From a virus: DNA of 33,228 nt. The stretch's first letter is position 1; each line of letters starts with the position of its first letter. Positions 3,054-24,711 of the stretch are shown here, one piece after another. The notes below the pieces were generated by a model. That model ran no database searches, was not told where the DNA came from, and saw only the letters and a program-made list of their open reading frames with translations. The stretch lies in the IMG/VR virus record IMGVR_UViG_3300025759_000365, positions 1-33,228 of that record; one strand, 5' to 3'. The position numbers and the translations under genes were made by a program.

Positions 3054-3068
3054 ATGACGACAGTACGG

Positions 3069-3086
3069 GTATATCTTTAGATATAC
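3069..3086. promoter_or_regulatory. Perfect 8+2+8 palindrome (operator-like)
   Basis: GTATATCT, a TT spacer, then AGATATAC form a perfect dyad in an AT-rich patch between the rusA start and the repeat array. The size and symmetry fit a dimeric DNA-binding protein site. The binding partner is unknown. Confidence 0.5.
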
Positions 3087-3101
3087 GCTGTGTAAATGTC
3101 G

Positions 3102-3189
3102 GACAAAAGCCGTGTTTTGTCCAAATGCCGGCATCGTGACAAATGCTGTTTTTGTCCAAATGCCGGCATCGTGACAAATGCTGTTTGTC
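3102..3189. repeat. Alternating half-site array with two 35-bp direct repeats
   Basis: Two direct repeats of 35 bp (3115-3149 and 3150-3184) lie next to the primase gene. Six half-sites alternate in direction: GACAAA at 3102, TTTGTC at 3116, GACAAA at 3138, TTTGTC at 3151, GACAAA at 3173 and TTTGTC at 3184. The 3101-3122 part is also a perfect GGACAAAA/TTTTGTCC hairpin. The period is not a multiple of three and the two copies read differently in every frame, so the array is most likely non-coding. It is a candidate set of iterons or operators for replication. Confidence 0.7.
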
Positions 3190-3226
3190 TGGGTTGTCGC
3201 GATGTGTTTTAAGTAGTTCACTTTGT

Positions 3227-5536
3227 TCATTTTTTACTCTTATCCAAAGGTAGTATTAGCGAATTTTTTAGCTCATAATCTTTATTGAAAGCTAAAACTC
3301 TTCGGTGAATTGTTCTCTCGCTTTTGCCCAGCACTTTTGCCATTTCTTGTTTTGATGGCGGTACCTTTCCCGGGTTGCCTGGGTCGTTTATGAATTGATC
3401 GAAAGCCTCGTCGAACATGGCTTTAGATATTTCGTCGTTTTTCGCCTTGCTTCGACCCTTGCTTTGACTTTGGCTTTGCTTAGGTGCGTAGTAACCTTCG
3501 GGCGCGGCTGATTTCAGCACGCCAACCGTATCGACTTCGTGCACTGGAAACTTGAACCAAAGGTTTATAGGCTTCATGGTAGGAAATTCACGCAGCGTCG
3601 TTTCAATTCGCCAAGCGCTAAGAGAATTACAATCCTCGAAGATTTGCGCTACCTTCGCGGCGGCTTGATCTTTCAAGTCTTCATCCTCAAGCATTCCCGG
3701 TTCTTGAGTGACTCCAAGCAAGCTGATGGCTGATTCTATATCTTCCTCTGAAATCATGGCCCGCCACTTGATCTGTGTTGCGTGTTCATCCAGCAAGGCG
3801 GTCAGGGCGTGGCATTGTAGCTCATTGCAAATCTGTTGGCGTTTTGTGTCGCTTAACTCTAGCTCCACCATGTCAACGATTGCGTCGGGATCGCGGGAGA
3901 ATACGCCAGAACCGCTCGATCTATCGCGACTAGCCTTTTGCCCTTGCGCGCCCTTTGAATGGTGATGCGCGAAAACTACAGCGGCTTGCAGCGTCACTGC
4001 TATTTTGTCGAACTGGTTGGTAAAGTGCGCCATATCTGCCGCGCTGTTTTCGTCGCCCGTCAGCACCTTATAGATCGGGTCTATCACTATTAGGGTATAC
4101 CCTTTCTGTTGCGCTTTCCGTATTAGTTTGGGCGCGAGCTTGTCCATTGTGGTGGCGTGGCCGCGCAGTTGCCATATGTCGATATTGCCTGTCGTTTTGA
4201 TGCGCTCTTGCGCCTTGTAAATGTCCCACAACCGGCAATGGCTCGAATCCTTGTCAAGCTCAAGGTTCACGTACAGAACGCGGCCTTGCGCACATTTTAG
4301 CCCAAACCAATTCGACCCTTCAGCGACCGCAACGCAAAGCTGAATCAATGCAAAGCTCTTTCCTGCTTTTGACGGGCCAGCTAACAGCATCTTGTGGCCG
4401 AATCGCAATATACCCTGGATTAGCTCTGGTTTTGGCTTCGGTCGTTCTTTGCCAATTTCCCACGGTACGATCTCGGGTAGATCGTCCTGCCCGTCAGCGA
4501 CCCAATCATCCCACGCTTCCCATGATTTCATCCCGATATCAGTAGCGAGTAGAAACTGAGGACGGCCATCACGTAAAACGCCAGGCATACGCGAGAGCCT
4601 GGACGGATTGCGGTTTTGTCGGTCCATCCTGAGTCCGTGCGCCTCGCATACATTGTATAGATGGTCTACCCTTTTGCGGTATTCTGCGTAGTCGCGCGCG
4701 TCTATTTTTACCACGGCATGAATTGACTTGCCCGCGCTGTGAACGAGCGCTGCGATAGGTAGCCGAAGAGCCTTGATTAGCGCAAGTTGGATGCCGGTCG
4801 TCTGCTCGTCGCTCTCAACTAGCGCGTACCTGTACGCCGTGACGTTTGCATCTTTCACGCCTTGGCCATCCACCGGGTTGAAGCGTATCCACGCGCCCGC
4901 GCTCGGGTGCCAATCGCCCACCACATAGGACATGTCGCGAGCGGTGCGCGTTTTCTCGATCAATTCCCCGGCGGTGCGATGGTACACGCCTTTTTGTGGG
5001 TATATCCTGTCTTCGTTCTCGTGGCATTCGGTAACGTAGCCTACGAACTCCTCTGGTTCAAAAATCGCCGTCAGGTAGTCACGGAAATCTTTCAATCCGT
5101 CCCAGGCTTTGCCAGGTGGGTATATGGTTTCTTCGTCTACAATTTCTGGATCGAAAACAAGACGCATAGCTTCGGCGTTATCTTGCTTTCTTTCCAGCGT
5201 CGCGACCTTTACGGCAGGCGCCGCGTACGATCTGTCGTAAATAATCTCTCCTTCAACCGCTAACACGCGGCCAGTGCTGCGCCAGCCTTTTCGCTGTGCC
5301 AGGTGATAAATGGTGCTGGCGGTCACTTCTTGTCCAGGTCCCTTCGCCTCAAAACTTTTCCATTTCGCCTCACATACCCCGGCGCGAAAACGAGCCGGGT
5401 CTTTTTGTGACCAGGCGACCCAATCTCGGCAACTGCCCCACGAGTGATGTAGGGCCATGCCGACTTGTAGCCACTCTTCGTAGCTGCATGAGCTTGCGGG
5501 CAAGTGGTCAAGCGCTTCTTGTAGTTCTGTTTGCAT
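3227..5536 (-). CDS. Phage replication primase-helicase (PriCT-2, AEP-like and RepA-like AAA ATPase)
   Basis: A 769-residue replication protein that probably opens the origin, makes primers and unwinds DNA. The N-terminus (about 1-85) resembles PriCT-2 (EEWLQVGMALHH, then W and F residues). The middle contains an archaeo-eukaryotic primase-like part (YALVESDE about 237-244, a SIHAVVKI strand with H273, and NPSRLSRMPG). The C-terminal half is a RecA-like helicase with Walker A AGPSKAGKS (about 386-394) and Walker B LIVIDPIY (about 482-489), as in RepA/AAA_25 proteins. The end has a helix-turn-helix (KQEMAKVLGKSERTIHRR). ATG 5536 was chosen for its GAGGAG site; it overlaps the SF2 helicase gene by 29 nt. 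The repeat array just downstream may be its target. Confidence 0.8.
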   Translation of the reverse strand: MQTELQEALDHLPASSCSYEEWLQVGMALHHSWGSCRDWVAWSQKDPARFRAGVCEAKWKSFEAKGPGQEVTASTIYHLAQRKGWRSTGRVLAVEGEIIYDRSYAAPAVKVATLERKQDNAEAMRLVFDPEIVDEETIYPPGKAWDGLKDFRDYLTAIFEPEEFVGYVTECHENEDRIYPQKGVYHRTAGELIEKTRTARDMSYVVGDWHPSAGAWIRFNPVDGQGVKDANVTAYRYALVESDEQTTGIQLALIKALRLPIAALVHSAGKSIHAVVKIDARDYAEYRKRVDHLYNVCEAHGLRMDRQNRNPSRLSRMPGVLRDGRPQFLLATDIGMKSWEAWDDWVADGQDDLPEIVPWEIGKERPKPKPELIQGILRFGHKMLLAGPSKAGKSFALIQLCVAVAEGSNWFGLKCAQGRVLYVNLELDKDSSHCRLWDIYKAQERIKTTGNIDIWQLRGHATTMDKLAPKLIRKAQQKGYTLIVIDPIYKVLTGDENSAADMAHFTNQFDKIAVTLQAAVVFAHHHSKGAQGQKASRDRSSGSGVFSRDPDAIVDMVELELSDTKRQQICNELQCHALTALLDEHATQIKWRAMISEEDIESAISLLGVTQEPGMLEDEDLKDQAAAKVAQIFEDCNSLSAWRIETTLREFPTMKPINLWFKFPVHEVDTVGVLKSAAPEGYYAPKQSQSQSKGRSKAKNDEISKAMFDEAFDQFINDPGNPGKVPPSKQEMAKVLGKSERTIHRRVLAFNKDYELKNSLILPLDKSKK

Positions 5537-7148
5537 GCTCTCGGTTCTCCTCTTTTCTTTTTTCCGGTCGGTATTCACTCGGCACGATATCAGTAGGTAT
5601 CCGCCAACCATTGATTGAAATTCGGTCTATCATCTCGCTCGCTGCTGCGATCGGCCACTGTCCTACCTGCTCAAAGCCGTACCGTTCGAGTAACCTTATT
5701 TGCTTTGGAGTAGACAATCCAGCGGCGCGGCGCTTGCCTAGACGCGTTAGAATCGCGCTAGCCATCCCTGCGGACTCTATCCGGTCGGCTTGTATCCCTG
5801 CATTCATCAGCGCCGTTTTTTGCTTATCTGATGCGGGGGCCATTTCCCAGCCGAACGACGGCACGTAGTTTTTTAGATCCTGATCTGCAATCGCCAACTC
5901 AAATTGCAGAGGGTCTATTAGCTTTTGTTTTCTGCTTTTGAAACTGGCCAACTGCTGCGCCAGCTTTTGCTCTATCTCTGCCACCCGGTCTTTTGCTTCT
6001 TCCATTGCCTCCTCTAGGCTTGCAGCCTTGCCGGGTGTTTTTTCAGATATTTCGATCATTTTTTTTGCTACCTTTTCGCTTTCGGCGATAAGGTGCGCCG
6101 GCCTGCAAAGGTCGTGGCGTTCTGAGTTCCATAGGAAATCTAGCAGCAGTAAATCTTTTTTACCTGGCGCAATCCTGGTTCCTCTTCCCACTATTTGCGC
6201 ATAGAGGCTCCGTACTTTAGTGGGACGAAGACAAACGATACAATCTACATCGGGACAATCCCAACCCTCAGTCAGCAGCATTGAATTACATAAAACATCA
6301 TATCTTCCGTCCTGGAAATCCTGTAGAATCTCGCCGCGTTCCTTCGTTTGTCCGTTTAGTTCTGCCACGTTGAGACCGCGCCTTTCGAGTATAGCTTTCA
6401 TTTTTTTACTAGTCGATATCAGAGGCAAGAAAACAACGGTTTTGCGCCCTCGGCAGTGTTTTACCATCTCGGTTGCAATATCTTCGAGATAAGGTCCCAG
6501 AGCACAACCAATATCCGATGACTTGAAATCTCCGGCCTGCGTTTTTACCTTTGATAGGTCAATCTTGAGCGGGATAGTCAGGGCTGATATAGGCGCCAAG
6601 AATCCTTGTATAATTGCTTTGGGCAAAGTGTATTCGTAGGCTACACATTCAAAGAACTCACCTAGATTTTGACTATCTCCGCGGTCTGGCGTAGCTGTTA
6701 CGCCTAATACTTTTGAGTTATCAAAGTAGCCTAAAATTCTTTGGTAGCTGCCTGCCAATACGTGGTGCGCTTCGTCCACAATGATTGCATCGAAAAACTT
6801 TGAATCGAACCGCTCTAGCCGTTTTTTACGGGACATGGTTTGGACCGACCCTACGACGATTCGGTACCACTGAGAATCACCCTCCAAGCAACTGCGTTCC
6901 GCCTTTTCGACTGCACATCCTAGTCCGGTAGATACTTTCATTTTATCTGCTGCCTGGTCTAACAGCTCGCCCCTATGCGCCAGTATTAAAACCCTTTTGC
7001 CTTGCGCCACTAGCTGTTCGCATAGCTTGCAGAAAACAATAGTTTTGCCACACCCTGTGGGCAAAACTAACAGCGTCCGCCTTACTCCCCTGGCCCAGGC
7101 TGCCACGATTGCAGCCTGGGCCTCTTTTTGGTATTTACGTAGCTCCAT
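5508..7148 (-). CDS. SF2 DEAD/DEAH-box DNA helicase
   Basis: A 546-residue superfamily 2 helicase. Visible motifs are the Q-like N-terminus (RKYQKEAQ), Walker A PTGCGKT (30-36), DEAH (124-127), motif III VTATP (149-153), and motif VI QIVGRGTR (317-324), followed by a coiled C-terminal extension with a Lys-rich end. This matches phage DEAD/DEAH helicases of the UvsW/RadD-like group that remodel forks and recombination intermediates. It sits between the SSB-like gene and the primase-helicase, in keeping with a replication/recombination operon. There is no clear ribosome site: the ATG lies 9 nt after the upstream stop, behind an AT-only palindrome, so translational coupling is likely. Confidence 0.88.
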   Translation of the reverse strand: MELRKYQKEAQAAIVAAWARGVRRTLLVLPTGCGKTIVFCKLCEQLVAQGKRVLILAHRGELLDQAADKMKVSTGLGCAVEKAERSCLEGDSQWYRIVVGSVQTMSRKKRLERFDSKFFDAIIVDEAHHVLAGSYQRILGYFDNSKVLGVTATPDRGDSQNLGEFFECVAYEYTLPKAIIQGFLAPISALTIPLKIDLSKVKTQAGDFKSSDIGCALGPYLEDIATEMVKHCRGRKTVVFLPLISTSKKMKAILERRGLNVAELNGQTKERGEILQDFQDGRYDVLCNSMLLTEGWDCPDVDCIVCLRPTKVRSLYAQIVGRGTRIAPGKKDLLLLDFLWNSERHDLCRPAHLIAESEKVAKKMIEISEKTPGKAASLEEAMEEAKDRVAEIEQKLAQQLASFKSRKQKLIDPLQFELAIADQDLKNYVPSFGWEMAPASDKQKTALMNAGIQADRIESAGMASAILTRLGKRRAAGLSTPKQIRLLERYGFEQVGQWPIAAASEMIDRISINGWRIPTDIVPSEYRPEKRKEENREHANRTTRSA

Positions 7149-7163
7149 TTTTTAAGTTAAAAA
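7149..7163. repeat. AT-only palindrome at a stop-start junction
   Basis: TTTTTAA, G, TTAAAAA is a perfect 7-bp dyad spanning the stop codon of the DUF669 gene and ending beside the ATG of the SF2 helicase. No Shine-Dalgarno sequence is visible there, so the A/U-rich leader may itself help ribosome entry or re-initiation. Confidence 0.45.
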
Positions 7164-7642
7164 TCGCCTAGCGTGAAACCTTGGTCTTGCGGCGCGGCGT
7201 AGGCCGACTGCTTCGGGGCTTGCTCCGCCCGCAAGAATCGCTTTATTTCGTTGTAGCTTTCGCCTTCGTACTGCCTGTGTTTCGTTTCGCACAGCCCGGT
7301 CGCTCCGGCAATCTGGCTCCAGTCAATTTTCAGCGTACCGCCTGGCTGCATGATGCCGATAGCGGTGAAGAAGTCGACGAGAAACCCGATGCACCGCCCG
7401 TGCATAAAAAAGGTGTACTTTATCGCCGCCTTGCCTTGTTCTCCGCCGTCGACTTCGCAGGCCACTATCACCTTTGGGCAGCTAGGCAGGTTGGCGCTTC
7501 CTGCGTGCTGTGCCTTCGTGTGTCCTGTCACCTTGAAGGGGTACTTACCCGGCTTCAGCAGGCAATACGCGCGGGCGCCCGTGTCCTCAATGGTGGGTTC
7601 AAAGTCAAGGGCAACGTCAAGAGAGTTGAGATCGTTACTCAT
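7157..7642 (-). CDS. DUF669-like, putative single-stranded DNA-binding protein
   Basis: A 161-residue protein resembling the DUF669 family found in phage recombination operons, next to Sak4-like ATPases. Features are the N-terminal DVALDFEPTIEDTG segment, a CLLKPGKYPFKVTGH strand, and a C-terminal Gln/Ala/Pro-rich linker ending in DQGFTLGDF. The acidic, Phe-terminated tip recalls the C-terminal tip that SSB proteins use to recruit partners. Start ATG 7642 follows an AAGGA site and overlaps the ATPase gene by 8 nt. Family assignment is by recognition of pattern and context; DNA binding is inferred. Confidence 0.7.
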   Translation of the reverse strand: MSNDLNSLDVALDFEPTIEDTGARAYCLLKPGKYPFKVTGHTKAQHAGSANLPSCPKVIVACEVDGGEQGKAAIKYTFFMHGRCIGFLVDFFTAIGIMQPGGTLKIDWSQIAGATGLCETKHRQYEGESYNEIKRFLRAEQAPKQSAYAAPQDQGFTLGDF

Positions 7643-8639
7643 TTTCTTTTCCTTCGTTTTGTTCGATGGTTTCAAGTACCCTAGGCCAGGCGGCCACCAG
7701 AACACCTTCTATGAACTTTTGGTCATATAGATGAATTGGCGTACCTTCTGGGTAGTACTCCTTTGCCGCTACTGCGCGGCGTATTTGCTCTTCGGTCACT
7801 TGGTGTCGATCCATCAGATCCCACAACGCCGGGCAAAAGCTGGCCGGGTCAGTTTTGAGCTTTCTCAGCTTCGGCGCTGTGTCGGGTTCGGTTTCTGGTT
7901 GTGCTTTTTCTTTGGGTGTTCCCTCCTTTTGTAAATGCGGAATACAACTGGCGATTTGCTCAAAGTCAAAAGGCAACTCTTGCGGCAGATCGTGGCGATT
8001 CTTGGCGTCCCAACATGGATGGTGCGTCGTATGAATGACCCTTTTGCCGCCTTGCGCTTTCTTCTTACCGTCCACGTCTAGCACGTGTGTTTTGAAATTC
8101 GCGAATAAAACCAAATCGGCCCATTCTTTGGTTAGCGGTGCGCACCTTTTCGAAAGTTTCAGCTCCCATCGATCATAGGCGCCTAATTCGTCAGGCTGCT
8201 CAAATTTCCTCATGTGGGCGTGAGCGAGTAAAACGACATTGATGCCGCCTTCAGAAATTGCAGTAAGGTAGCTCAGGAATTTACCCCAGGATTCAGCTAC
8301 GAAGACGTAACCCTTTCCGTAGCCAAATTCTTCTATCCCAGCCTTCCCCTGCTCTGCGCATACTTTTTGAATGCACAGCGCCTCAAGTGCGTCCGCGGTG
8401 TCAATCACCAGAGTACCAAAACCCATCGGGTTCTTTTGGAACTCGACCAACATATCAGCGAACATTTGCCAGCTCTGCGGACACTCGGTACGGGAAACGT
8501 CAATATGGTTGCTTCCTTTTTCCACGTCAACAAAAAGGGGATCCGGGAACTTGCTTGCGAAGGACGTCTTGCCAATTCCTTCGGGGCCGTACAGAACTAC
8601 CCGTTGTGCTTTGATTTGCTTTCCTTTTGTAATCTGCAT
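7635..8639 (-). CDS. RecA-fold ATPase, Sak4-like (AAA_24)
   Basis: A 334-residue ATPase related to the phage Sak4/AAA_24 group, proteins that help single-strand annealing or act as RecA-like recombinases. Walker A GPEGIGKT is at 18-25, with the conserved SFASKFPDPLFVDVEKG following; Walker B TLVIDTADAL is at about 76-85; VVLLAHAHM is a likely sensor strand. The C-terminal part (about 235-334) is a charged linker plus a small helical domain of unknown role. ATG 8639 has a GAGAG site and lies just past the nuclease stop. The order nuclease, ATPase, SSB-like protein is typical of phage recombination modules. Confidence 0.8.
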   Translation of the reverse strand: MQITKGKQIKAQRVVLYGPEGIGKTSFASKFPDPLFVDVEKGSNHIDVSRTECPQSWQMFADMLVEFQKNPMGFGTLVIDTADALEALCIQKVCAEQGKAGIEEFGYGKGYVFVAESWGKFLSYLTAISEGGINVVLLAHAHMRKFEQPDELGAYDRWELKLSKRCAPLTKEWADLVLFANFKTHVLDVDGKKKAQGGKRVIHTTHHPCWDAKNRHDLPQELPFDFEQIASCIPHLQKEGTPKEKAQPETEPDTAPKLRKLKTDPASFCPALWDLMDRHQVTEEQIRRAVAAKEYYPEGTPIHLYDQKFIEGVLVAAWPRVLETIEQNEGKENE

Positions 8640-8640
8640 T

Positions 8641-9630
8641 TTACAGCTCTCTTTTTGTTTCTGCTTTGTTTGTTGCTTCGGTGGTGTCATCGCTTTCGTT
8701 CTTCCAGTACACGTGAACTGGTTGGATGTCCGCGAGGTTCGCAGGGCAATATCCAGGAAGGCTCTCATGGTCAGCCAGTTTAAGGCTCGCCACGGCATGG
8801 AGCGCGTTTTCATAGCGCCTGCGGCCTTCTACCCTGTCTTCTTCTCTCATTGCCCATATTGCCTGTAGATATGGCGCGGCCATTTCGATGGCGTGCCAGT
8901 ACCACGTCTGACGCGGGTAGCCTATGGCCTCCAGGACGTCGCAGTATAGGGCGCCTTGAACTGGGTATTGGAACGCTCGGCAGGAGCGCGCGAATGAGAG
9001 GCGGTCACAGCGATTACTTGAGCCATTGACCGTTTTTACGTCAATGATTCTGTTTTGCTCGTCGTCCCAAAAGTCGAGGCGAATTTTTACGCGTAGCGGC
9101 CTTGCCAGAGCCCCTATTGAAGTGTGCGTGACTTCCACTATCACCACATGTTCGACACGCGCCGTATCTGCCTGGTACATATCATGTATCAGACTATGCC
9201 GGGGCGCCTTGAGGCTTGCGGCCACGCCTTGTGCAATTACTAGGTGCGCAGGCTCGACGATGCGGACAGATGGGAGCAATACGCTTGCGAGGTCTGTTCG
9301 CTTCACCTTGCGCGCGTCATCGGACGTTAGCTCTCGGCTTAACTTCCCTTCTCGCCCGAGGTTTAGGAGCCATTCTGCCCACGCGTCTTTGCCTTGCGAG
9401 GTGTTTAATTTGACCTCTGGCGCCGCTCTTACCGCTGCAAATGCTTCCGGCTCAAGAACCGCCTCATGGCAGAGCGTGCCAAGATTGAGATGGCCTCCTT
9501 CTTTTTGCGGCGTTAAAATCCTGGCAGGACAATCCGCTATCAGCTTGAGGCGAGAAGACGAAAGCGCATCGTGAGCCAAATAGCGTTCCATCGGCATTGG
9601 CCCTACTGTGATATTTCTGGAAACCTTCAT
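8641..9630 (-). CDS. PD-(D/E)XK nuclease, RecB/exonuclease VIII-like (PDDEXK_12)
   Basis: A 329-residue nuclease of the phage RecE/Cas4-like group, predicted to resect DNA ends for recombination. The N-terminal LSSSRLKLIADCPARI segment and GTLCHEAVLEP (51-61) are the conserved His motif and helix of this family. The catalytic core is RLDFWDDEQNRIIDVKT, with D186 and the D-x-K pair at 197-199, followed by the QxxxY motif YPVQGALYCD (Q225, Y229) of RecB-type nucleases. The ATG at 9630 has GAGG upstream and overlaps the small membrane protein gene by 4 nt (ATGA). The partner ATPase and SSB-like protein are encoded directly downstream. Confidence 0.82.
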   Translation of the reverse strand: MKVSRNITVGPMPMERYLAHDALSSSRLKLIADCPARILTPQKEGGHLNLGTLCHEAVLEPEAFAAVRAAPEVKLNTSQGKDAWAEWLLNLGREGKLSRELTSDDARKVKRTDLASVLLPSVRIVEPAHLVIAQGVAASLKAPRHSLIHDMYQADTARVEHVVIVEVTHTSIGALARPLRVKIRLDFWDDEQNRIIDVKTVNGSSNRCDRLSFARSCRAFQYPVQGALYCDVLEAIGYPRQTWYWHAIEMAAPYLQAIWAMREEDRVEGRRRYENALHAVASLKLADHESLPGYCPANLADIQPVHVYWKNESDDTTEATNKAETKREL

Positions 9631-9800
9631 TTTGCCTCTTTCTTTATCAACTTTGCCATCTCTTCGGCGTCCTCCCTGGCACGGCTCCGCTCGTCGAGCC
9701 AGCACCGCACCGCGTACACAGTAAGGAACACGTATGCGGCGAGGGCTACGGCCAGGCCAGCGATCAGCAGCCGCCCGAGGTGTTCAGCTAGATGATGCAT
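9627..9800 (-). CDS. Small single-pass membrane protein
   Basis: A 57-residue protein with one hydrophobic segment (about residues 11-30, LLIAGLAVALAAYVFLTVYA) and a charged C-terminal tail (RSRAREDAEEMAKLIKK) likely to be helical. A perfect AGGAGG site lies 6 nt before the ATG. It overlaps the HTH gene upstream by 17 nt and the nuclease downstream by 4 nt, so it belongs to the early operon. The function is unknown; small membrane proteins at this position may affect the host envelope or exclude other phages, but nothing in the sequence shows that. Confidence 0.75.
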   Translation of the reverse strand: MHHLAEHLGRLLIAGLAVALAAYVFLTVYAVRCWLDERSRAREDAEEMAKLIKKEAK

Positions 9801-11146: not shown

Positions 11147-11180
11147 AGCCCGCGGTCTACCGGATCGCGGGCTTTTTCTT
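11147..11180 (+). terminator. Intrinsic terminator for the plus-strand operon
   Basis: AGCCCGCG (11147-11154) and CGCGGGCT (11166-11173) form a perfect 8-bp stem with an 11-nt loop, followed by TTTTCTT. It lies 18 nt after the regulator stop and overlaps the 3' end of the converging lipase gene, whose stop codon is in the loop. Only the plus strand has the U-rich tract. Confidence 0.85.
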
Positions 11181-11891
11181 GCCCGGGTCGAGCGCGGCGC
11201 AATAGTTGCAGATCGCATGCTGCGCCATCCACCAGGCCGCGACGCCGACGCCGACGGGCCGGGCAATCCGATTGACTGAAATCCGGTCGTGTGGCGACCG
11301 CGACCCGACGCCGCCCAGGAGCGGCACGCGGCGCGGGAGCCAGGTCACCGGGTCAAGCGGCGACTCGTAGCGCTCACCGCTGGCAGCGTCCTCGATCTCT
11401 GCGCGCTGCAGATCTGTACAGCCACGCGGCGCCCCAAAGGTCACCACGTGAGGGCGCACAAATAGCTGATTCGCAAGCGTGAGAGCCGCCATCCTGGCGA
11501 GCTGTCCGCCCAGGCTATGCCCCGCGATCCGAATGCAGACGCTAGACCGACGCGGGATCGCATCCAGTACGCGCTCCTCGACCTCTTCCCAGAGTCCCAG
11601 CCAGCCGCGCGGCGAGAACCGAGATCGGACATTGGCGCGCCAGTCCTGCAGGCTATCAGTGCCGCGCGCGACAATCTCGACGGTAGGCACTGACCGCCAG
11701 CGAAATACGGCTACCTGCGTACCGCTGTCATCGTCGATCCAGTCGAGTACATCTACCCCGAGGCGCTCACAAATTGCCGGATCTGGGCCGGTTCCTCGTA
11801 CGGACTGAGCCTTGCCAGTGCGGACCTCGTAAGGGTAGACTGCTGCGGCCAAGCGTGCAGAGTGGTACGCGCTCGGGATTGAATTGAGCAT
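11157..11891 (-). CDS. Class 3 lipase (alpha/beta hydrolase), candidate lysis enzyme
   Basis: A 244-residue esterase of the fungal/bacterial lipase class 3 family. The oxyanion segment VARGTDSLQDW (74-84) matches the family RGT..DW motif. The nucleophile elbow is GHSLGG (124-129, Ser126), and the triad is completed by Asp180 in SPLDPVTWLP and His201 in SPHDRIS. There is no signal peptide. The gene is the last of the rightward-placed late block and follows a one-pass membrane protein, where lysis genes usually lie, so it may break down membrane or envelope lipids at lysis. A virion-associated role in entry is the alternative. No amidase, lysozyme or other peptidoglycan hydrolase was seen in the window. 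Confidence 0.8.
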   Translation of the reverse strand: MLNSIPSAYHSARLAAAVYPYEVRTGKAQSVRGTGPDPAICERLGVDVLDWIDDDSGTQVAVFRWRSVPTVEIVARGTDSLQDWRANVRSRFSPRGWLGLWEEVEERVLDAIPRRSSVCIRIAGHSLGGQLARMAALTLANQLFVRPHVVTFGAPRGCTDLQRAEIEDAASGERYESPLDPVTWLPRRVPLLGGVGSRSPHDRISVNRIARPVGVGVAAWWMAQHAICNYCAALDPGKKKPAIR

Positions 11892-11894
11892 CCG

Positions 11895-12209
11895 CTACTG
11901 AATCCGGTCCAGCTTCGCGTCAATGATTTCGAGGCGTCGAATTACTTCGATATTGTGTTTCATCACGCCTTCGCACGCTACCGCGTTTGTCAACAGTGCG
12001 TCGCGTAGGTCGCGCAACGCCTCATTTGACTCTGCTTGTAGCCCGTGGCAACGCTCGATCCGTTGCGAGGCAACCAGATCATCGCGCTTGTTTGCTGTGA
12101 CTAGATAGCCCAAAAACAGCGCAACGATAATCAGATAGCCTCCCCAATGTGGTACGCCTGATAGCTTGAGATGGCCTGCCTCAATGGCGTCAATTTTAGC
12201 ACTGCCCAT
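11895..12209 (-). CDS. One-pass membrane protein with coiled coil (holin/spanin-like candidate)
   Basis: A 104-residue protein with a short N-terminus, a single transmembrane segment (about 24-39, GYLIIVALFLGYLVTA), a basic-acidic border (NKRDD) and a long helical, heptad-rich tail (about 48-104, with MKHNIEVIRRLEIIDAKL). The shape fits an inner-membrane spanin-like protein or a small holin, but no family motif is certain. It lies 3 nt upstream of the lipase gene and downstream of the fibre cassette. Two Cys residues occur in the tail. A virion assembly role cannot be excluded. Confidence 0.65.
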   Translation of the reverse strand: MGSAKIDAIEAGHLKLSGVPHWGGYLIIVALFLGYLVTANKRDDLVASQRIERCHGLQAESNEALRDLRDALLTNAVACEGVMKHNIEVIRRLEIIDAKLDRIQ

Positions 12210-12232: not shown

Positions 12233-12739
12233 CTATCGCAGGTCGTCTACGCGCTTCGTCACGAGGCCAAAGCCTGAGACCTCAGCGCCTCCCCAGTACG
12301 CCACGTGCTGGCCGTTTTGGGTAAGGCTCACTAGCTGGATTTGCTTGCCCCCCAAAACGAACGATTTAGTCGACGGGCTCCATCCATTTACGTCGTCAAA
12401 CGTGCCGATGACCGCCGCAAGTGCAGCCATGACTTGCTGCTGCTCGCTTGGGCCAGGTGTGGTGTAGTTTGCGCGTACAGAATCAAGCAACCGGTAGGTG
12501 TCATCTGCTGCCACGTATAGAAAATTTTGGGTAGAGATTTTTGCCACGCCTTCAGCGTTGAGAACGTATTGTACTTCGACTGAGTAGACGCCTGCGCGCT
12601 TGGTGGCGGTGATATCGCCTGCATGTAGGACGTTTGGCGAGATGGCCGAGGCGACGAAAGCCGCTCTGGCTTCTGGTGTGTCTGCCGCCCAAGTGCTAAC
12701 GACGAGAGAGATAGCGAGAAGAATTGTGCTGATTTTCAT
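12233..12739 (-). CDS. Secreted protein of unknown function (Sec signal peptide)
   Basis: A 168-residue protein whose first 18 residues look like a signal peptide: Lys2, a hydrophobic core ILLAISLVV, and a likely cleavage after STWA. The mature part has no motif I can name; it shows repeated beta-type strands and ends in GFGLVTKRVDDLR. It is the last of four consecutive genes with signal peptides and precedes the membrane protein and lipase. The ribosome site is weak (GGAAC). It may be a fibre, an adhesin cap or a periplasmic lysis or exclusion factor. Confidence 0.65.
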   Translation of the reverse strand: MKISTILLAISLVVSTWAADTPEARAAFVASAISPNVLHAGDITATKRAGVYSVEVQYVLNAEGVAKISTQNFLYVAADDTYRLLDSVRANYTTPGPSEQQQVMAALAAVIGTFDDVNGWSPSTKSFVLGGKQIQLVSLTQNGQHVAYWGGAEVSGFGLVTKRVDDLR

Positions 12740-12767
12740 TGTGTGTTGTTCCGTTTTTGGTGGTTAC

Positions 12768-13889
12768 TTAGAAGAAAATGATAATTTGCGCGGCGCCACC
12801 GCCAGCAGCAGCAGCGACCCAAGCGCCAGCAGTTTGGAAGTTTGCCTCGGCCTGATTGTTATACATTGTGGCTATCCAGTCTGCATCCATCACAGTCGTA
12901 TCATTCGACGCCCAGACCTCATCGACTAGCCCTTGCGTGCCATCCTCTGCCTGGAATGTGCCAATCGTGTCGTTGGCAATCGCGCTCTGATAATCAGTAT
13001 TCCCTGTTGTGCTTAACGTCCCTTCCTCAACGCCATTTATAAACACCTTTTGAGTCGAGCCATCCCAGTACCCTACAATGTGGTACCACTGGTTCGCGCT
13101 GATATGGCTAGACCCTGACTCTGCAATTTTCCACGATCCAGAATGTCTGTGTAATTGCATATTTGTCCCGAGACGTTTAACTTTATAGCCGCCGCCTGGT
13201 GAGCGATTGCCCATCAGCCCGAACGGTGCGTCGTTGCCAGCCGTCGTGTCAAACCATACCCACATTGAGACAAAACCAGCGCTTCGATAGTCAGGAGTAA
13301 GGCTAAAATCGGCAATCTCTAGGCGCTGCCCTGCTCCTGTAAAATCGACGCAATAATCCCACGGCCCTGCCTGCTCGTAGGTGCCCTGATTGATCTGGTC
13401 TGCGTGATTGTCGTAGGTGGTAGAATCTGTCATCTCAGTATATGTCGAGCCTGACAGGTGATATATCCCAGTGTATGTGGTATCCCAGACTGCTTCAGCA
13501 CCATACGTGTCTGACTCAGCGTAGGCGGTCGCCGCGCCATTGCCAACCCAGATCCGATACTCGGTGTCTGCGCTCGTCGACACGTCCAGGCGGACCCACA
13601 GTAGCCCGTCCTCTGCGACTGTATCAATACGATCCAGCTCGTGTGGGACCTCAGCATCGGCGTCAGTAGTCACGCGGATATCGCGCCCAGTGCTATGCAC
13701 GCTACTCCACCATGTCGCATCCGTGATTTCGCTGAGCAGCAGGCCTACCGCAAAAGCGCTGTGCGTGCCCGAGCCACTCACATAGGTATTGTCGATCGTG
13801 ATCGGGACATATCCCGACCAGCTCGAGCCGTCGAAGGTGTTGGCCACCGCTAGGCTGGCCGCCAAGAAGAGGGCTAAGCGCATCATCAT
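12768..13889 (-). CDS. Secreted DUF2341/LamG-domain protein, putative fibre or adhesin
   Basis: A 373-residue protein with an N-terminal signal peptide (MMMR, hydrophobic core, cleavage after LAVA). Residues about 20-115 resemble the DUF2341 domain (SGYVPITIDNT... with DIRVTTDADAE), and about 175-345 a LamG/concanavalin-like jelly roll (FVSMWVWFDT, QWYHIVGYWDG, KVFINGVEEG, GLVDEVWAS). Such pairs bind glycans in secreted bacterial proteins. The C-terminus ends in a glycine-alanine run and IIIFF. Three ATG codons in a row overlap the stop of the upstream fibre gene, indicating coupling. The position in the tail module suggests host recognition; a signal peptide on such a protein is unusual. Confidence 0.7.
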   Translation of the reverse strand: MMMRLALFLAASLAVANTFDGSSWSGYVPITIDNTYVSGSGTHSAFAVGLLLSEITDATWWSSVHSTGRDIRVTTDADAEVPHELDRIDTVAEDGLLWVRLDVSTSADTEYRIWVGNGAATAYAESDTYGAEAVWDTTYTGIYHLSGSTYTEMTDSTTYDNHADQINQGTYEQAGPWDYCVDFTGAGQRLEIADFSLTPDYRSAGFVSMWVWFDTTAGNDAPFGLMGNRSPGGGYKVKRLGTNMQLHRHSGSWKIAESGSSHISANQWYHIVGYWDGSTQKVFINGVEEGTLSTTGNTDYQSAIANDTIGTFQAEDGTQGLVDEVWASNDTTVMDADWIATMYNNQAEANFQTAGAWVAAAAGGGAAQIIIFF

Positions 13890-15400
13890 TGCCGCGTAAA
13901 CTCCAGCGTGATCGATAGCCCTTGCGCCGCCGCTGTACTGCCCACTGCGTCGATGTCTACCCGGATCACATCGCCTCCGGCCAGGTCGTCGTTTGCCGTG
14001 TCGATCACGTAGGCCGCGGCGGCGTCATCGCTAGAGACCTCGGTCGCATCGACCGTGACGACTGTCGATAGCATATCCGCAAACGTACGGGTATCGCCTC
14101 GCCCCCGGGCGAGCTGTATATCTGTCGTCGAGCCCGTGCCAGCGACGTATACTACAGCCTCGACGCCTGTCAGATCCCAGCTCCCCGCCTTGGCGTGCGG
14201 GAACGTGTAGAAGACGCCGCCTGCTGCATCCTCGACCGCGGTCGCCGTCGTCCCGCCATACACGACTACCTGAACATAAAATCTGCCAGTGTTTCCCGTG
14301 CCCAAAGCGGTATCAATGCCCGCCAGATGCGCGGTCAGGTCGTCTGTGCTGTCTGCCTCGGCTGGCGACGTGGTGGGCGTGTAGTCGCTCGCGGTGTAGG
14401 TGATCTCTAGTTTATCGCCGTCGATTGCATCGCTCCCCCCGTCAATATGGCTAGCCGCGTGCGTCGTGCTGGCCTTCGTTGTGTCGAGGTTGCCGAGCGC
14501 TGTATCTATTCCCTCCAGGTGTGCGGAGAGTTGGTCTGCGGCGTCTACCTCCGCAGGCGTGACTGAAGGCGTATAGGCCCCGTGGTCCGTGTACGTGATC
14601 TCGATTTTGTCGCCGTCTACTACATCGCTCCCACCATCGATGTGGGTGCTTGCGTGCGTGCCAATGTATCCGGCAGCAATCGCGGTTCCCTGCCACGTCC
14701 CTGTGGCTACCGTTCCCAGCGTGGTTATGCTCGTGCTTCCTGCGTAGGTGCCTGCTGTGACTGCGTCCAGTGTGCCGCTAGCTAGCTGCGCGCTGAGTGC
14801 TGTACGCGCCCCGCTAGCCGTCGTCGCTCCGGTGCCACCTGCACCGATGTCGATCACGCTATTTGCGTCGGTGTCATAGGTCGCCTTCAGCATGTCTCCG
14901 CTGCCTGCTGGGCTAGACCATTGCGGATTTGCCCCGGCGCCTTGCGTCTCCAGGTATTCTCCGGTAGTTCCTGGCGTAAGCATCACCCACGCGCTGCCGT
15001 CATAATACAGGATGTCGCCTTGTGCTGGCGTCAGGCTCTCAGCGATCCCCACCAGCTCTTGCACCGTTGCACCGTCGTGAAATTGCAGCGTTCCGGTATT
15101 TGATATCAGGTATAGGTCACCGCCCGCGGGCGTCAGCAGGTCGCGTTGTGCATCGGTCAGCGTAATGACCTCAATTCCTGCGTGATTCGTGCCGCTAAAA
15201 TCAATTTTACCAGTAAAGGTTTGGCCATCAATTATGTTGTTTACTAAGTCTTCGTCTAGGGTGAGCGCCCCAACGGTTACCGTGCCCGTAAAGTCGATAT
15301 CTTGCGGGCATTCATCCGTGGCAATATCGCGTTTCAATGTTTCATATTGCGCCGCGCTCAATACAAAAGCGAGCAGGAAAAAAGAAAAAAACCGAACCAT
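13886..15400 (-). CDS. Secreted repeat-containing tail fibre-like protein
   Basis: A 504-residue protein with an N-terminal signal peptide (MVRFFSFFLLAFVLSAA, likely cleavage before Gln18) and a phage fibre body. LTDAQRDLLTPAGGDLYL and TLQFHDGATVQEL (81-116) match modules common in tail fibres. GAGGTGATTASGARTALSAQ (186-205) is another typical fibre segment. Two repeats at about 248-307 and 313-368 share HxxxHIDGGSD and HLxGIDTALG, a motif seen in trimeric fibres. The C-terminus is a beta-rich domain (370-504) that may bind the receptor. A strong AGGAGG site precedes the ATG. The mature start QYETLKRDI matches the mature start of the small secreted protein encoded just upstream. Confidence 0.75.
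   Translation of the reverse strand: MVRFFSFFLLAFVLSAAQYETLKRDIATDECPQDIDFTGTVTVGALTLDEDLVNNIIDGQTFTGKIDFSGTNHAGIEVITLTDAQRDLLTPAGGDLYLISNTGTLQFHDGATVQELVGIAESLTPAQGDILYYDGSAWVMLTPGTTGEYLETQGAGANPQWSSPAGSGDMLKATYDTDANSVIDIGAGGTGATTASGARTALSAQLASGTLDAVTAGTYAGSTSITTLGTVATGTWQGTAIAAGYIGTHASTHIDGGSDVVDGDKIEITYTDHGAYTPSVTPAEVDAADQLSAHLEGIDTALGNLDTTKASTTHAASHIDGGSDAIDGDKLEITYTASDYTPTTSPAEADSTDDLTAHLAGIDTALGTGNTGRFYVQVVVYGGTTATAVEDAAGGVFYTFPHAKAGSWDLTGVEAVVYVAGTGSTTDIQLARGRGDTRTFADMLSTVVTVDATEVSSDDAAAAYVIDTANDDLAGGDVIRVDIDAVGSTAAAQGLSITLEFTRQ
14297..14659 (-). repeat. Two divergent 65-codon repeats within the fibre gene
   Basis: Codons for residues about 248-307 (14480-14659) and 313-368 (14297-14464) encode the same pattern: THAxxHIDGGSD, DGDKxEITYT, TPxxxPAEx, then HLxGIDTALG. 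The period is about 195 bp. This is an internal duplication with divergence, typical of fibre shafts. Confidence 0.8.
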
Positions 15401-15410
15401 TTAAAGCCTC

Positions 15411-15599
15411 CTAATCTGTTAGAATGTCAAGTTTGAGCGACTGCCAAGTGTTGTTGACGCTGGTCAAAATTACAGCGTCTCCAGTGGTCATAGAGAATGT
15501 ACGTATGGCGCTCGAATCAATCGCGCGCTTGACCGTCTCTTTTTGCTCAGCGAGCGCCAGGCTTGCAAGCAACAATGTAGTAAGTAAATGTCTGATCAT
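15411..15599 (-). CDS. Small secreted protein with fibre C-terminal motif
   Basis: A 62-residue protein with a clear signal peptide (MIRH, core LLTTLLLASLALA, cleavage A-L-A before EQ). The mature protein begins EQKETVKRAI, close to the QYETLKRDI that opens the mature fibre encoded next. It ends in TGDAVILTSVNNTWQSLKLDI, a motif shared with the C-termini of the two upstream tail proteins. Start ATG 15599 has an AGAGG site, and a longer upstream frame lacks support. It may be a secreted single-domain subunit of the fibre. No known family is recognised. Confidence 0.7.
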   Translation of the reverse strand: MIRHLLTTLLLASLALAEQKETVKRAIDSSAIRTFSMTTGDAVILTSVNNTWQSLKLDILTD

Positions 15600-15610
15600 G
15601 ATTGAGCCTC

Positions 15611-15958
15611 TTAGAGCGTTGATATGTCGAGAGTTTGAGTTCGCCAGGTGCCGCCAGGTACAAGGATCGCCGCTTGGCCTTTTGTCAGCGTGATTGTGGT
15701 GAGAGGGCTGCCATTGATCGCTGGCGCGATCAACCTGCCATTTCTGAGCGTGAGGCTCCCTCGCATTTCGACCGTGTTGGTAGAGTCGACGCATAGCAGG
15801 ATGATGATTGCCGTCTCGGTATAGTCGGGGGCATACAGACTGATCGGCGTATATGATGCATCGAGCTGATAGATGTTAATTCCGTTTGTGAGCTTGAGCG
15901 TCGGGCGATAGCTAGTTATCCGCTGGACGGTTATCGGTAATCCTGCAAGGTCAGCCAT
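15611..15958 (-). CDS. Tail or fibre-tip protein with conserved C-terminal motif
   Basis: A 115-residue beta-rich protein without a signal peptide. The core TYRPTLKLTNG-like strands and the C-terminal LTKGQAAILVPGGTWRTQTLD recall the neighbouring tail proteins. Its start shares one nucleotide with the stop of the preceding gene (TGATG), implying coupling. Related C-terminal endings in proteins at 15411 and 15958 suggest one domain reused in consecutive genes, possibly an oligomerisation or attachment domain. No enzyme motif is present. Confidence 0.6.
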   Translation of the reverse strand: MADLAGLPITVQRITSYRPTLKLTNGINIYQLDASYTPISLYAPDYTETAIIILLCVDSTNTVEMRGSLTLRNGRLIAPAINGSPLTTITLTKGQAAILVPGGTWRTQTLDISTL

Positions 15959-16881
15959 CAGTCTAGCACCACGTCGAGATTGAAATTTTGCCAGGCTGAA
16001 TCTGTAGCGAGGTACTGCAGCAGCGCTGCCTTTTTTCCGCCATTGGTCAAGATCAGGTCGGTCGTGTCGTTGATCGTGCCGGTCAATTTGGCCGCGTTGG
16101 TGTCGTTGATGCAGCTCGCCAACAGCAGCGGCTCACCTGCGCTCGCTGGTAGCGCCACGTCTACGTCAGTTACAAAGGTATCGATCTGTAGGGTCAGCAA
16201 CCCGATCCAGTCGTCGATCGCCGATACCGCAGTCCAGACCGCGGCGCCTGCTGTGCTGTCATCGCATCGGTAAAGCTGCTCGCCGGTGTCGTCCCAGATG
16301 TAATCGCCGACCTCGTGCCCGTCGTTGATGTCGTCGCCTACGCCTGGCGCAGCGGTGAGCCCGCGGGCTACGACTGTAGCCACGGGGATATCAGAGCTAG
16401 TCAGCGTTGCCCCGCCGTCGCCCTCAACCGCCAAGACTTTTGTGGCCCAAAACACGTGCTGCTTTTCTGTGCCAGACGTGATCACAGCGTATAGCAGGCA
16501 GTCCTGATCGCCAAAGTAGCTCGTGATCTCGTCGGCCTCGATCGTCCAGGTGATCTTGTAGTAGTTGCCGGATCCGCCCACCTGTGCGATCGTGCCAGCA
16601 GCGTCGAGCGTGACCGGCGTCTCTTCTGAGTCCGCGCGTCTGATATAGAGCGCCGCCGTCGCGCCGCTTCCCCAGTCCTGTGTAGCTTGGCCGTCCTGAT
16701 AATTTGCGAACGCATACAGCACCAAATCAAACGAGTCCCCTACGACGAGCTCTGGCAAATCCTCGATGCGGTTGCCCTCGGTCACCGCGCTATCAAGCGG
16801 CGTGTCGATCCGCGCTTTGCCCGCCTGCGCGTATGGCGATGCGGCCAGGTCGACCGCGGTGTAGTAGGTGGTATCTGCCAT
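15958..16881 (-). CDS. Tail/baseplate protein with BppU-like N-terminus and C-terminal domain
   Basis: A 307-residue structural protein. Residues about 40-150 (VGDSFDLVLYAFANYQDGQATQDWGSGATAALYIRR onward, in outline) resemble immunoglobulin-like upper baseplate domains. About 185-225 (DDINDGHEVGDYIWDDTGEQ and a short Asp-rich loop) is typical of phage fibre linkers. The final 80 residues, ending AWQNFNLDVVLD, match the C-terminal domain of the next two proteins. There is no signal peptide. A GAGG site precedes ATG 16881. It probably builds the tail tip or anchors fibres. The family call for the N-terminus is uncertain. Confidence 0.6.
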   Translation of the reverse strand: MADTTYYTAVDLAASPYAQAGKARIDTPLDSAVTEGNRIEDLPELVVGDSFDLVLYAFANYQDGQATQDWGSGATAALYIRRADSEETPVTLDAAGTIAQVGGSGNYYKITWTIEADEITSYFGDQDCLLYAVITSGTEKQHVFWATKVLAVEGDGGATLTSSDIPVATVVARGLTAAPGVGDDINDGHEVGDYIWDDTGEQLYRCDDSTAGAAVWTAVSAIDDWIGLLTLQIDTFVTDVDVALPASAGEPLLLASCINDTNAAKLTGTINDTTDLILTNGGKKAALLQYLATDSAWQNFNLDVVLD

Positions 16882-18362: not shown

Positions 18363-18787
18363 GGCGTCACCGTCGTCTCGGTGACGGGATCCTCAACAAT
18401 GATACACTGAGCAGTCAGCACACCCTTAGGCCCTTCGATTTGCACGTCGAGGCTCTCCACCTGCCAGGTGTTTGCTGTGACAGCAAAGTACTCAATTGCA
18501 CCGCCACCGGCTCCGACGCTAAGGCGCTCTGAGCTCGGCAAATGCGTCCAGTTCCGGATTGCGGCGAATCCGGAATCATTGAAATCCTCGGCAACAAAAT
18601 CACACCATAAGGTTAAGTGTCGCGTAGTTTGTCGCGTGACTTGTGTGCCTTGATTTGTCCGACGATGGTGTATCGAATAGGCTTGCACTTTCCAGACGCG
18701 GGCCCCTAGCGATGGCAGGCCGCCACCGGTCCCCGGAGGATTTGGGATCGAGGATGCAGATTGCTGCGGTAGTTCGTTAATCGCCAT
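18359..18787 (-). CDS. Putative tail-tip protein of unknown family
   Basis: A 142-residue protein directly after the tape measure gene, where distal tail proteins usually lie. The N-terminus is rich in Pro, Gly and Ser (IPNPPGTGGGLPSLG), and the rest looks beta-rich. The segment GGGAIEYFAVTANTWQVESLD resembles the C-terminal motif of the downstream tail proteins. Start and stop share one nucleotide with the neighbours or overlap by 4 nt, so it belongs to the same operon. Function unknown beyond a probable virion role. Confidence 0.6.
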   Translation of the reverse strand: MAINELPQQSASSIPNPPGTGGGLPSLGARVWKVQAYSIHHRRTNQGTQVTRQTTRHLTLWCDFVAEDFNDSGFAAIRNWTHLPSSERLSVGAGGGAIEYFAVTANTWQVESLDVQIEGPKGVLTAQCIIVEDPVTETTVTP

Positions 18788-20199
18788 TACTGCGCGCCCT
18801 CCAGTAATGGCATCATCCGCTTGTCGAAGATATCCAAAATGGTCCGCAGAACTGCGGATTCATCGCCTACGGTTCCCGCGATAAATCCCGCCTTTCCTAT
18901 GCCGAGATCGCGAAAATCATCACGCATCACTGGTGCCGGGCCTAGATGTTTAAGTAGCCCGCGGCGCGGATCCGCCTTGGGATGCGAGAATGGCAAGAGC
19001 GCAAGAACATCGGAGAGTGGCTCCGAAGCCTGATCCATTGCATTGGCGATAGCCGCGCCCACAAAGACGAATGCTCCGGGGATGCTCGCAATGAATTTCA
19101 TGACCTTGCCCACAGCAGCGATGCCATCCGCAAGCTCAACGACGATATCTCGGAAATTGGCGACATTCTCAGGGGTAAATGCCTCACGCAGGCTAGCCGC
19201 TAGAGCAGGGATATTGCCCCCGAATTCTTCTGCCTTGGCGATCATCGAGTCGATTGTGTCTGAAAATAGCCCGGCCACCGGCTCCAGCGCTACGCGAAAA
19301 TCCTCCATAGCTTGCGGAGTGAATCCCGCCATTATGGTTTCAGCCATCCGCTTAAGCCTCGGCGTAATCCCCTGCACTTTCGTACTCACGCCATCTATTG
19401 CAGTTTTGAACGCTGGCAAAAACACATTGCCAACGGTGGCTTTAGCAGACTTAAACGCATCGTTCATAGTCGATAGCTTGCCGGTCGCTGTCTTTGACAA
19501 GCGATCCATTGCGCCCTCGACTTGCTTGGATTTGCCCGCCGCGACAAAAAATTCAAGGATTCCATCCTTCGTGTCGATCCCCTCTTTGCGCACGCCAGTA
19601 AATGCGTTCGTCAGCGTGAGCGCGCCCTTCTCAGCCTTGCCAGCCAGCCCCACAAAATTGTCTACCATCGCCGCCTGCCCGCGCCCGGCTGAAATCATAG
19701 CATCAGCCAGTTCTGCCAATGGCTTATTGGACGCGGCCGCCACGTCGCCCAGGCTGCGGAATTTCTCAAGGTCGATATCAAACCCTGCGGCCTTCAAGCG
19801 AATAAACGCATCTGCGATATCTTCGAGTTGAAACGGCGTCGACGCGGCCAGTTGTTGTAGCTCAGTGAATTTGGCGTTGGCCAAATCCTGCGCGCCGAGA
19901 ATCTGCGTCAGTCGCGCCCTTAAAGTCTCATAGCTGGCCGCGGCAAAGAGTACATCTTTACCGACCCCGATTGCCTTGCGCGCAGCAGCCGCTGCCTTCC
20001 GTATCCCGACGTACCCCACCACTACGCCAGTAATACTCTGGGCCAGGCGCCGCATTGACGCAGTACTCCTGTCGATCCGCTTGCCCATCCGGGCCATCTT
20101 GCCCGACATTTTGGCAACCTCAAGATTGCTGCGATGGATTCCCCGAAGCAGCCCGCGCGTATCCGCGTCAATGACCGCGACTAGCTTTTCAGTGGCCAT
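18787..20199 (-). CDS. Tail tape measure protein
   Basis: A 470-residue protein that sets tail length and is ejected during DNA delivery. The N-terminal 150 residues are helical and Ala/Lys/Arg-rich, with the tape-measure pattern ASYETLRARLTQILG, followed by FTELQQLAASTPFQLEDIADAFIRLKAAGFD and LGDVAAASNKPLAELADAMISAGRGQ, matching PhageMin tail domains. Hydrophobic Gly/Ala segments (SITGVVVGYVGI; IPGAFVFVGAAIANAM) are typical membrane-insertion regions. At 470 residues it is short, suggesting a tail of roughly 70 nm (about 0.15 nm per residue). A GGAGG site precedes ATG 20199, and the chaperone extension overlaps its first codons. Confidence 0.88.
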   Translation of the reverse strand: MATEKLVAVIDADTRGLLRGIHRSNLEVAKMSGKMARMGKRIDRSTASMRRLAQSITGVVVGYVGIRKAAAAARKAIGVGKDVLFAAASYETLRARLTQILGAQDLANAKFTELQQLAASTPFQLEDIADAFIRLKAAGFDIDLEKFRSLGDVAAASNKPLAELADAMISAGRGQAAMVDNFVGLAGKAEKGALTLTNAFTGVRKEGIDTKDGILEFFVAAGKSKQVEGAMDRLSKTATGKLSTMNDAFKSAKATVGNVFLPAFKTAIDGVSTKVQGITPRLKRMAETIMAGFTPQAMEDFRVALEPVAGLFSDTIDSMIAKAEEFGGNIPALAASLREAFTPENVANFRDIVVELADGIAAVGKVMKFIASIPGAFVFVGAAIANAMDQASEPLSDVLALLPFSHPKADPRRGLLKHLGPAPVMRDDFRDLGIGKAGFIAGTVGDESAVLRTILDIFDKRMMPLLEGAQ

Positions 20200-23724: not shown

Positions 23725-24711
23725 CTAGTTGCCGCGGTTCTTGTGGTTAAATTTTTCCCATATTTCCGGGTGTGCCAAACGGGCGGCCACATAATCACCT
23801 CCGTGAGCGGCGAGCGCTGCGCGAAAATTATCTGGCGTCGGTGCTTCTAGCTCTGGTGTCTTTTGGCCTGGCGCTAATCGGTCAATGCGGGCCTGCATTT
23901 CCAAGCGCGCAGCTTCGGCTGAGGTTTGCGCATTCTCTGCTTCTGCCAATTTCGCTTGCAGTTCTTCCAATTTTGCTGCGGTTTCAGCCTCGGCGACTGC
24001 TGTGCGTGCTTCTAGCTCCGTGTGGCGTGTGACCAGAGAAGCAACCGCCTCGTAATCCGCTGCGAGCGTTTCCAGGCTCTTTTCTGCCGTTGGCTCGGTT
24101 TCCGCTGCGGTGAAATGCGCAGCGGCGTCCTCGTGTACAGCGAATCGCGGAGTACGCAGTTGGGCGACCGCTTTCAGCTCTTCGCCGACCTGCATGCGCC
24201 ACCCAAGACCGGTTGCATCCGCACCAGTCATCCAGGTCTCAGCATCCATCCAGCCGCTGATCACGTCTGCATCTTCGTCTACGTGGCGCTGGTATGCTGC
24301 GATTGCGTGAGCCTTCATGCCGTCCATGACATCCGCCATAGTGCGCAAGTCGTCCGCTTCGCCAAAGGCGACCGTAGCGGGATTGTGAATCATAAACCAG
24401 GCATTTTCGGCTATGTGGATCTCATCAGCAGCACAAGCAATAATACTCGCCATACTAGCAGCGATGCCGTCTACGTGCGCGATGATTTTGCCCTCATGGC
24501 GCCGCAAGGCGTTGTAGATTGCGAACCCGTCGAGCACGTCACCGCCGCCAGAATTAAGGCGCAGCGTGATTGCTTCGACCGGGCCAAGCGCTTGCAGGTC
24601 GCGCAAGAAATCCTTAGCAGTGACGCCCCAAAAGCCAATTTCATCATATATGGAAACTTCAGCCGCGGTATTTTGCGCCTGCATGGTATACCAACTATTA
24701 TGCTTGCTCAT
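23725..24711 (-). CDS. ClpP-like head maturation protease fused to scaffold
   Basis: A 328-residue protein with two parts. Residues about 15-190 are a ClpP/S49-like serine protease: LNSGGGDVLDGFAIYNAL (52-69), GIAASMAS with catalytic Ser86, and WFMIHNP with His109. Residues about 215-275 form an Ala/Glu-rich coiled coil typical of a scaffolding domain, followed by a short tail. Such fusions assemble the procapsid and then cleave the scaffold. The ATG at 24711 has GGAGAC upstream and overlaps the portal stop by 14 nt. It matches the lambda gpC/Nu3 position. Confidence 0.88.
   Translation of the reverse strand: MSKHNSWYTMQAQNTAAEVSIYDEIGFWGVTAKDFLRDLQALGPVEAITLRLNSGGGDVLDGFAIYNALRRHEGKIIAHVDGIAASMASIIACAADEIHIAENAWFMIHNPATVAFGEADDLRTMADVMDGMKAHAIAAYQRHVDEDADVISGWMDAETWMTGADATGLGWRMQVGEELKAVAQLRTPRFAVHEDAAAHFTAAETEPTAEKSLETLAADYEAVASLVTRHTELEARTAVAEAETAAKLEELQAKLAEAENAQTSAEAARLEMQARIDRLAPGQKTPELEAPTPDNFRAALAAHGGDYVAARLAHPEIWEKFNHKNRGN

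Follow-up and report, generated by a model that had tools for sequence, protein, structure and literature searches.

Tailed-phage assembly is taught as wholly cytoplasmic. Why do four consecutive tail or fibre genes, at positions 12233-15599 of the IMG/VR virus record IMGVR_UViG_3300025759_000365, begin with what look like Sec export leaders, and where would their products go? The window analysed here is that whole record (33,228 bases), which represents an HK97-type siphophage with its genes on the minus strand, and the four genes encode the proteins named P0001 to P0004. We found that all four begin with predicted leaders of the Sec/signal peptidase I type, which makes their export well supported by sequence, and that all four are, on sequence grounds, parts of the tail or its fibres that gained a leader. 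Our preferred, still tentative reading is that they may be outer tail or fibre parts which are exported through Sec late in infection and attach to the particle when the cell lyses or afterwards.

The four open reading frames (ORFs) are closely packed within a single late operon, two of the junctions being gaps of 10 and 28 bases and the third a 4-base overlap, and all features given for them below are on the minus strand. P0001 (62 amino acids (aa), 15411..15599) has its leader in residues 1-17 (15549..15599, MIRHLLTTLLLASLALA, site ALA/EQ, predicted cut before EQ), P0002 (504 aa, 13886..15400) in residues 1-17 (15350..15400, MVRFFSFFLLAFVLSAA, site SAA/Q, predicted cut before Q), P0003 (373 aa, 12768..13889) in residues 1-16 (13842..13889, MMMRLALFLAASLAVA, site AVA/N, predicted cut before N) and P0004 (168 aa, 12233..12739) in residues 1-18 (12686..12739, MKISTILLAISLVVSTWA, site TWA/A, predicted cut before A). 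Each shows the basic n-region, the hydrophobic core and the small residues at -3 and -1 that characterize Sec/signal peptidase I substrates. Leaders were called by a purpose-written rule-based scorer with a cut-off of 9, which, on a control stretch of Escherichia coli K-12, called 9 of the 11 exported proteins and none of the 23 cytoplasmic ones but also 2 of 7 membrane proteins, and therefore does not fully separate a cleaved leader from a membrane anchor. Among the 41 genes of the window, P0001-P0004 passed the cut-off and none of the remaining 37 did, which bears out the sequence-only reading of this DNA that had placed four Sec-leadered ORFs at these positions. The base rate of leader calls was 2.6% (99/3817 genes in 191 fetched loci, nearly all of them viral contigs); for at least four leadered genes among 41, p was thus about 0.02, and the probability of a chance run of four neighbours was about 2e-5. 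Shuffled N-termini passed the cut-off in 0.2% of cases for P0002, 0.7% for P0003, 3.3% for P0001 and 6.5% for P0004, so the calls for P0001 and P0004 are the weaker ones. After the leader, a second strongly hydrophobic stretch was present in 0/4 proteins (highest 19-residue hydropathy 0.84-1.57), there was no lipobox Cys at +1 nor any Cys in the four leaders, and glutamine (Gln, Q) occupied the predicted +1 position in one of the four (P0002).

The start codons of the leadered ORFs appear credible, and it seems highly improbable to us that the hydrophobic N-termini are accidental, or bypassed by a downstream translation start, so that nothing is exported. Such a reading could draw on the existence of leaderless homologues, on a TTG at codon 22 of P0002 and a GTG at codon 15 of P0003, and on the 3-7% of shuffles that reach the leaders of P0001 and P0004. 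However, neither internal start has a Shine-Dalgarno site, the ATG of P0002 is preceded by a near-perfect AGGAGG, P0004 has no alternative start within 60 codons, and four leaders in a row, similar arrangements in many unrelated phages and the enrichment of Q at +1 all argue against accident. The sequence-only reading had held that leaderless homologues with a conserved downstream start would speak against the leaders; leaderless homologues do exist, but no downstream start supported by a Shine-Dalgarno site was found in the window genes.

The clearest fibre protein is P0002, in which the leader is followed by fibre modules and a tip domain. It contains the fibre motif GSGDMLKATYD (14873..14905), two copies of a HIDGGSD ... 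HLxGIDTALG repeat (14300..14647) and a C-terminal tip domain (13889..14296), predicted to be a beta-sandwich of phage tail fibres; the fibre motifs of the sequence-only reading, HIDGGSD and GAGGTGATT, are indeed both present. The AlphaFold2 (AF2) model of the tip domain, built from 64 sequences, had a predicted local distance difference test score (pLDDT) of 89.6 and matched tail-fibre proteins in the library of predicted viral structures (BFVD) with E values down to 6e-12, and 27 of the 64 tip-domain members matched the tail fiber family phrog_5073. A Foldseek search against the PDB gave no match below 1e-3, and searches of solved structures by sequence yielded nothing useful. P0003 carries, after its leader, a DUF2341-like region and a Laminin_G_3 domain (12900..13328, E=2.9e-12) and ends in AAQIIIFF; of the DUF2341 and LamG (laminin G) domains previously ascribed to it, DUF2341 matched below threshold only. 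P0004 is a leader followed by a small protein weakly related to the product of L117:10285-10755 (described below); its single-sequence structure model (pLDDT 45) was not used.

P0001 consists of a leader and a domain of about 37 residues that forms the C-terminus of the neighbouring leaderless tail proteins, of 307 aa (15958..16881, minus strand) and 115 aa (15611..15958, minus strand). The alignment score of mature P0001 with the C-terminal domain of the 115-aa protein was reached by 0/2000 shuffles. Across 15411-16881 the 307-, 115- and 62-aa neighbours have in common this C-terminal domain ending in W..(F/L)xLD, and the leader is found on the shortest only. Mature P0001 (about 15520-15550) and mature P0002 (about 15320-15350) both begin with QxETxKRxI just past the predicted cut, which may represent a shared attachment motif or a duplication. 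A DNA-level duplication of the two leader regions was considered and set aside as not significant (p=0.36).

Comparison with homologues suggests that the leader is an addition to ordinary structural genes. Only one of 80 viral loci with the P0002 tip domain, the contig of L005, has a leader on it, and the other 79 are leaderless; likewise, wherever a tip fibre and a LamG gene adjoin in other loci, both are leaderless (12/12). These counts agree with the earlier opinion that a leadered fibre cassette is unusual. One of the closest known systems is the IMG/VR contig 3300025674_000451 (L117), where leaderless counterparts of the P0002 tip, P0004 and P0003 adjoin in one cassette. P0003 aligns over its full length with the product of L117:10755-11822 (32% identity over 358 columns, E=2e-29), which is leaderless, a stop codon four codons upstream of its start leaving no room for a leader; the match of P0004 to the small fibre-cassette protein, also leaderless, is weak (E=4e-5). 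Thus the L117 cassette resembles that of the window in uniting relatives of the fibre tip, of the small protein and, over the full length, of the DUF2341-LamG protein, but differs in having no leaders, in its order (fibre-small-LamG, against fibre-LamG-small in the window) and in its upstream genes, which are not those of a tape-measure tail. Since all cassette genes are leadered in the window, and both the fibre and the DUF2341-LamG protein are leadered in the phage G009, the leaders seem to occur as a set.

Other phages indicate which parts of a virion receive leaders. The decisive comparison is with the podophage G008 (IMG/VR 3300033148_003903), whose sole tail nozzle (phrog_376, E=2.5e-195) begins with the leader VAKRAWLILFLCSAVWG, with a predicted cut before QG. 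Its start is preceded by AAGGAG, no later start lies ahead of the conserved FNAGEVSP, and homology to the nozzles of epsilon15 and HTVC010P starts directly after the leader, the HTVC010P nozzle itself starting without one. The portal, capsid, adaptor and internal proteins of G008 are leaderless. Moreover, G008 possesses a leadered LamG protein (L328:13534-14358) that ends in AAQVIIINM; this end and the AAQIIIFF of P0003 (window 12768-12800) were the sole such C-termini among 5919 called proteins, and they may possibly represent a common C-terminal attachment strand. In G011 and G013, leaders occur on a virion structural protein of phrog_3287, on the fibres and on the product of the gene after the capsid gene, which by its position may be a decoration protein, and are absent from the portal, scaffold, capsid, adaptor and internal proteins; two relatives of the phrog_3287 protein from GenBank phages are leaderless. 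In G008 and G011, a number of the proteins called portal, scaffold or adaptor here are so named from gene position only. Leaders on outer parts and none on interior parts are what assembly in two compartments predicts.

The main rival explanation is that the leadered copies do not belong to the virion but are exported, fibre-derived proteins, which coat the infected or lysogenic cell or sit on its receptor, or are shed as soluble decoys, thereby blocking superinfection or shielding released virions from debris. The sequence-only reading had offered display on the cell, a block to superinfection and incorporation into the particle during or after lysis, and had not ranked them; the comparison favours incorporation, as the single-copy nozzle of G008 is leadered and its interior parts are not: a leader on the sole nozzle makes no sense for a decoy. 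Whole sets of parts being leadered together, and the lack of a lipobox or obvious membrane anchor in the window proteins (0/4 exceptions), also count against the decoy explanation. We consider it unlikely, though worth serious attention, since the leaders are real by sequence, fibre tips and LamG domains are suited to binding surfaces, and P0001 repeats, with a leader, a domain of which this phage also has a leaderless version, as would be expected of a soluble copy. Exclusion genes beside tail genes are, moreover, known from lambda, T5 and phi80, whose exported products Lom, Llp and Cor are encoded beside the tail-fibre genes; these are small lipoproteins or barrels, whereas the window proteins are made of fibre modules and have no lipobox.

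Leadered fibres recur. A search for fibres with the GDMLKA motif, made blind to leaders, yielded 92 different complete ORFs, 12 of which (13%) were leadered; 13 had been flagged, and one (L215) was discarded by eye as false. For an earlier count of 11/80, the chance of at least that many at the base rate was p about 7e-6. The leadered fibres occur in many unrelated contigs, runs of three to six leadered neighbouring genes were observed in L004, L005, L006 and L021, and the second cassette gene, of about 185 aa, retains its leader across L004, L020 and L293 (44-52% identity; L004 versus L020, 44%). The fibre-like gene of the crAss-like phage cr10_1 (L333 14931-18056) has no leader; its neighbour is a reverse transcriptase gene, an arrangement seen in diversity-generating retroelements. 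Export in the service of O-glycosylation at D[ST][AILVMT] motifs was also considered and rejected (59 motifs observed in leadered proteins versus 60.7 expected).

Of 42 leadered cassette genes, 11 had Q as the residue predicted at +1, as did 4/4 leadered fibre-region genes of the isolate-genome prophages G006 and G007, which fits the Bacteroidota Q rule, that is, Q at the signal-peptide cleavage site (PMC10367356); the hosts of these isolates are probably Bacteroidota. Could the leaders instead be membrane-targeting tags that hold the outer parts at the inner membrane, where particles would be completed without full export before lysis? The identical split between outside and inside parts would be expected, and the scorer confuses N-terminal anchors with leaders, as its calls on 2/7 membrane proteins demonstrate. 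However, most leaders have clear AxA sites, the Q at +1 (both in the 11/42 and in the 4/4 fibre genes of G006/G007) suggests that signal peptidase I cuts them, and a Sec-targeted fibre is normally translocated, so we regard simple tethering as quite unlikely. Still a little less probable is lysogenic conversion, in which adhesin-like surface proteins built from phage fibre domains would alter the host surface. LamG and DUF2341 domains would suit this role, and Nixviridae prophages of Porphyromonas gingivalis carry Q-rule signal-peptide genes of unknown function, which their authors read as potential modifiers of the outer membrane or envelope (PMC10367356). These genes resemble the window set in being phage genes with host-adapted signal peptides, but they were not recognised as fibre parts (PMC10367356). 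Against conversion, the window genes lie inside a late tail-lysis operon, with starts that overlap or nearly do so and no separate moron unit, and leadered nozzles do not fit it.

We therefore return to export of outer virion parts as the reading that we favour. From what the sequence itself indicates (leaders, leaderless interior proteins, and fibre or tail ancestry), we presume translocation, cleavage, storage and late joining as follows. The tail-lysis operon would be transcribed late and the outer parts made with leaders; they would pass SecYEG, lose the leader to signal peptidase I and be kept as mature proteins outside the cytoplasm (in the periplasm if the host is diderm). Meanwhile, the DNA-filled head and the tail tube would be built from leaderless proteins in the cytoplasm, where filled particles without fibres would accumulate, and at or after lysis both halves would meet and the fibres attach to the tail. 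For T4 and P22, the joining of fibres or spikes to completed particles in vitro is a classical finding. Some points weigh against this reading: the leaderless distal tail proteins of 307 and 115 aa could alone carry receptor binding, so that the leadered set might serve a different purpose; the window has no close relatives among which conservation of the leaders could be compared; and the nozzle, the strongest argument for virion parts, comes from other phages and not from the window.

In the open-access literature searched, no description was found of Sec leaders on tailed-phage fibre or nozzle proteins. Filamentous phages make their coat proteins with Sec leaders, as in pIII and pVIII of Ff, and the window proteins, if they are virion proteins, would be similar in this respect; Ff phages, however, are membrane-extruded and contain ssDNA, whereas the window phage is a tailed dsDNA phage. 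The G008 nozzle (tail nozzle/tail tubular protein B) is a further parallel, as an outer virion protein that apparently gained an N-terminal leader, although the window has no nozzle.

The surroundings of the cassette are those of a late structural region, all on the minus strand: TerL (26881-28953), portal (24698-26350), a ClpP-like protease (23725-24711) and a leaderless tape measure protein (18787..20199), which anchors the tail module upstream of the four genes. The leadered genes are flanked by the distal tail proteins on one side and by a probable lysis pair on the other: the first gene past the cassette (11895..12209) encodes a 104-aa protein with one membrane segment, which gave no family match and is likely holin/spanin-like by position and sequence, and the next (11157..11891) a class-3 lipase, the likely lysis enzyme. 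This succession of a one-membrane-segment protein and a lipase (11157-12209) stands at the expected site of a lysis cassette, and no peptidoglycan hydrolase was recognised among the proteins tested.

Many IMG/VR phages have a replication module closely similar to the one at 2518-9705 (62% identity for the helicase), and the primase is close to those of Streptococcus, Faecalibacterium and other phages. Exact peptide patterns turned up nothing in viral contigs that was close to P0004, the 307-aa tail protein, the portal or TerL, and the major capsid protein had no match among GenBank phages. A replication module so widely shared, beside a structural module without a close relative, points to strong mosaicism. 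A protease scan for the host gave only distant matches (Clostridia, Sphingomonadaceae and others, 35-41%), and with the replication module widely shared, no host was therefore assigned to the window phage. Methyltransf_24 and glycosyltransferase-2 genes are present both in the window phage (160-2521) and in the leadered phage G002 (L106 9693-11925).

More tentatively still, we suggest that there may exist a class of tailed dsDNA phages in which heads, DNA and interior parts are assembled in the cytoplasm, the nozzle, decoration, fibre and lectin-like parts are exported through Sec, and the virion is completed outside the cytoplasm, a trait that would have arisen in, or moved between, siphophages and podophages by the addition of leaders to ordinary structural genes. 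If outer parts are indeed exported, then the order of assembly, the timing of lysis and the evolution of host range would all change for such phages.

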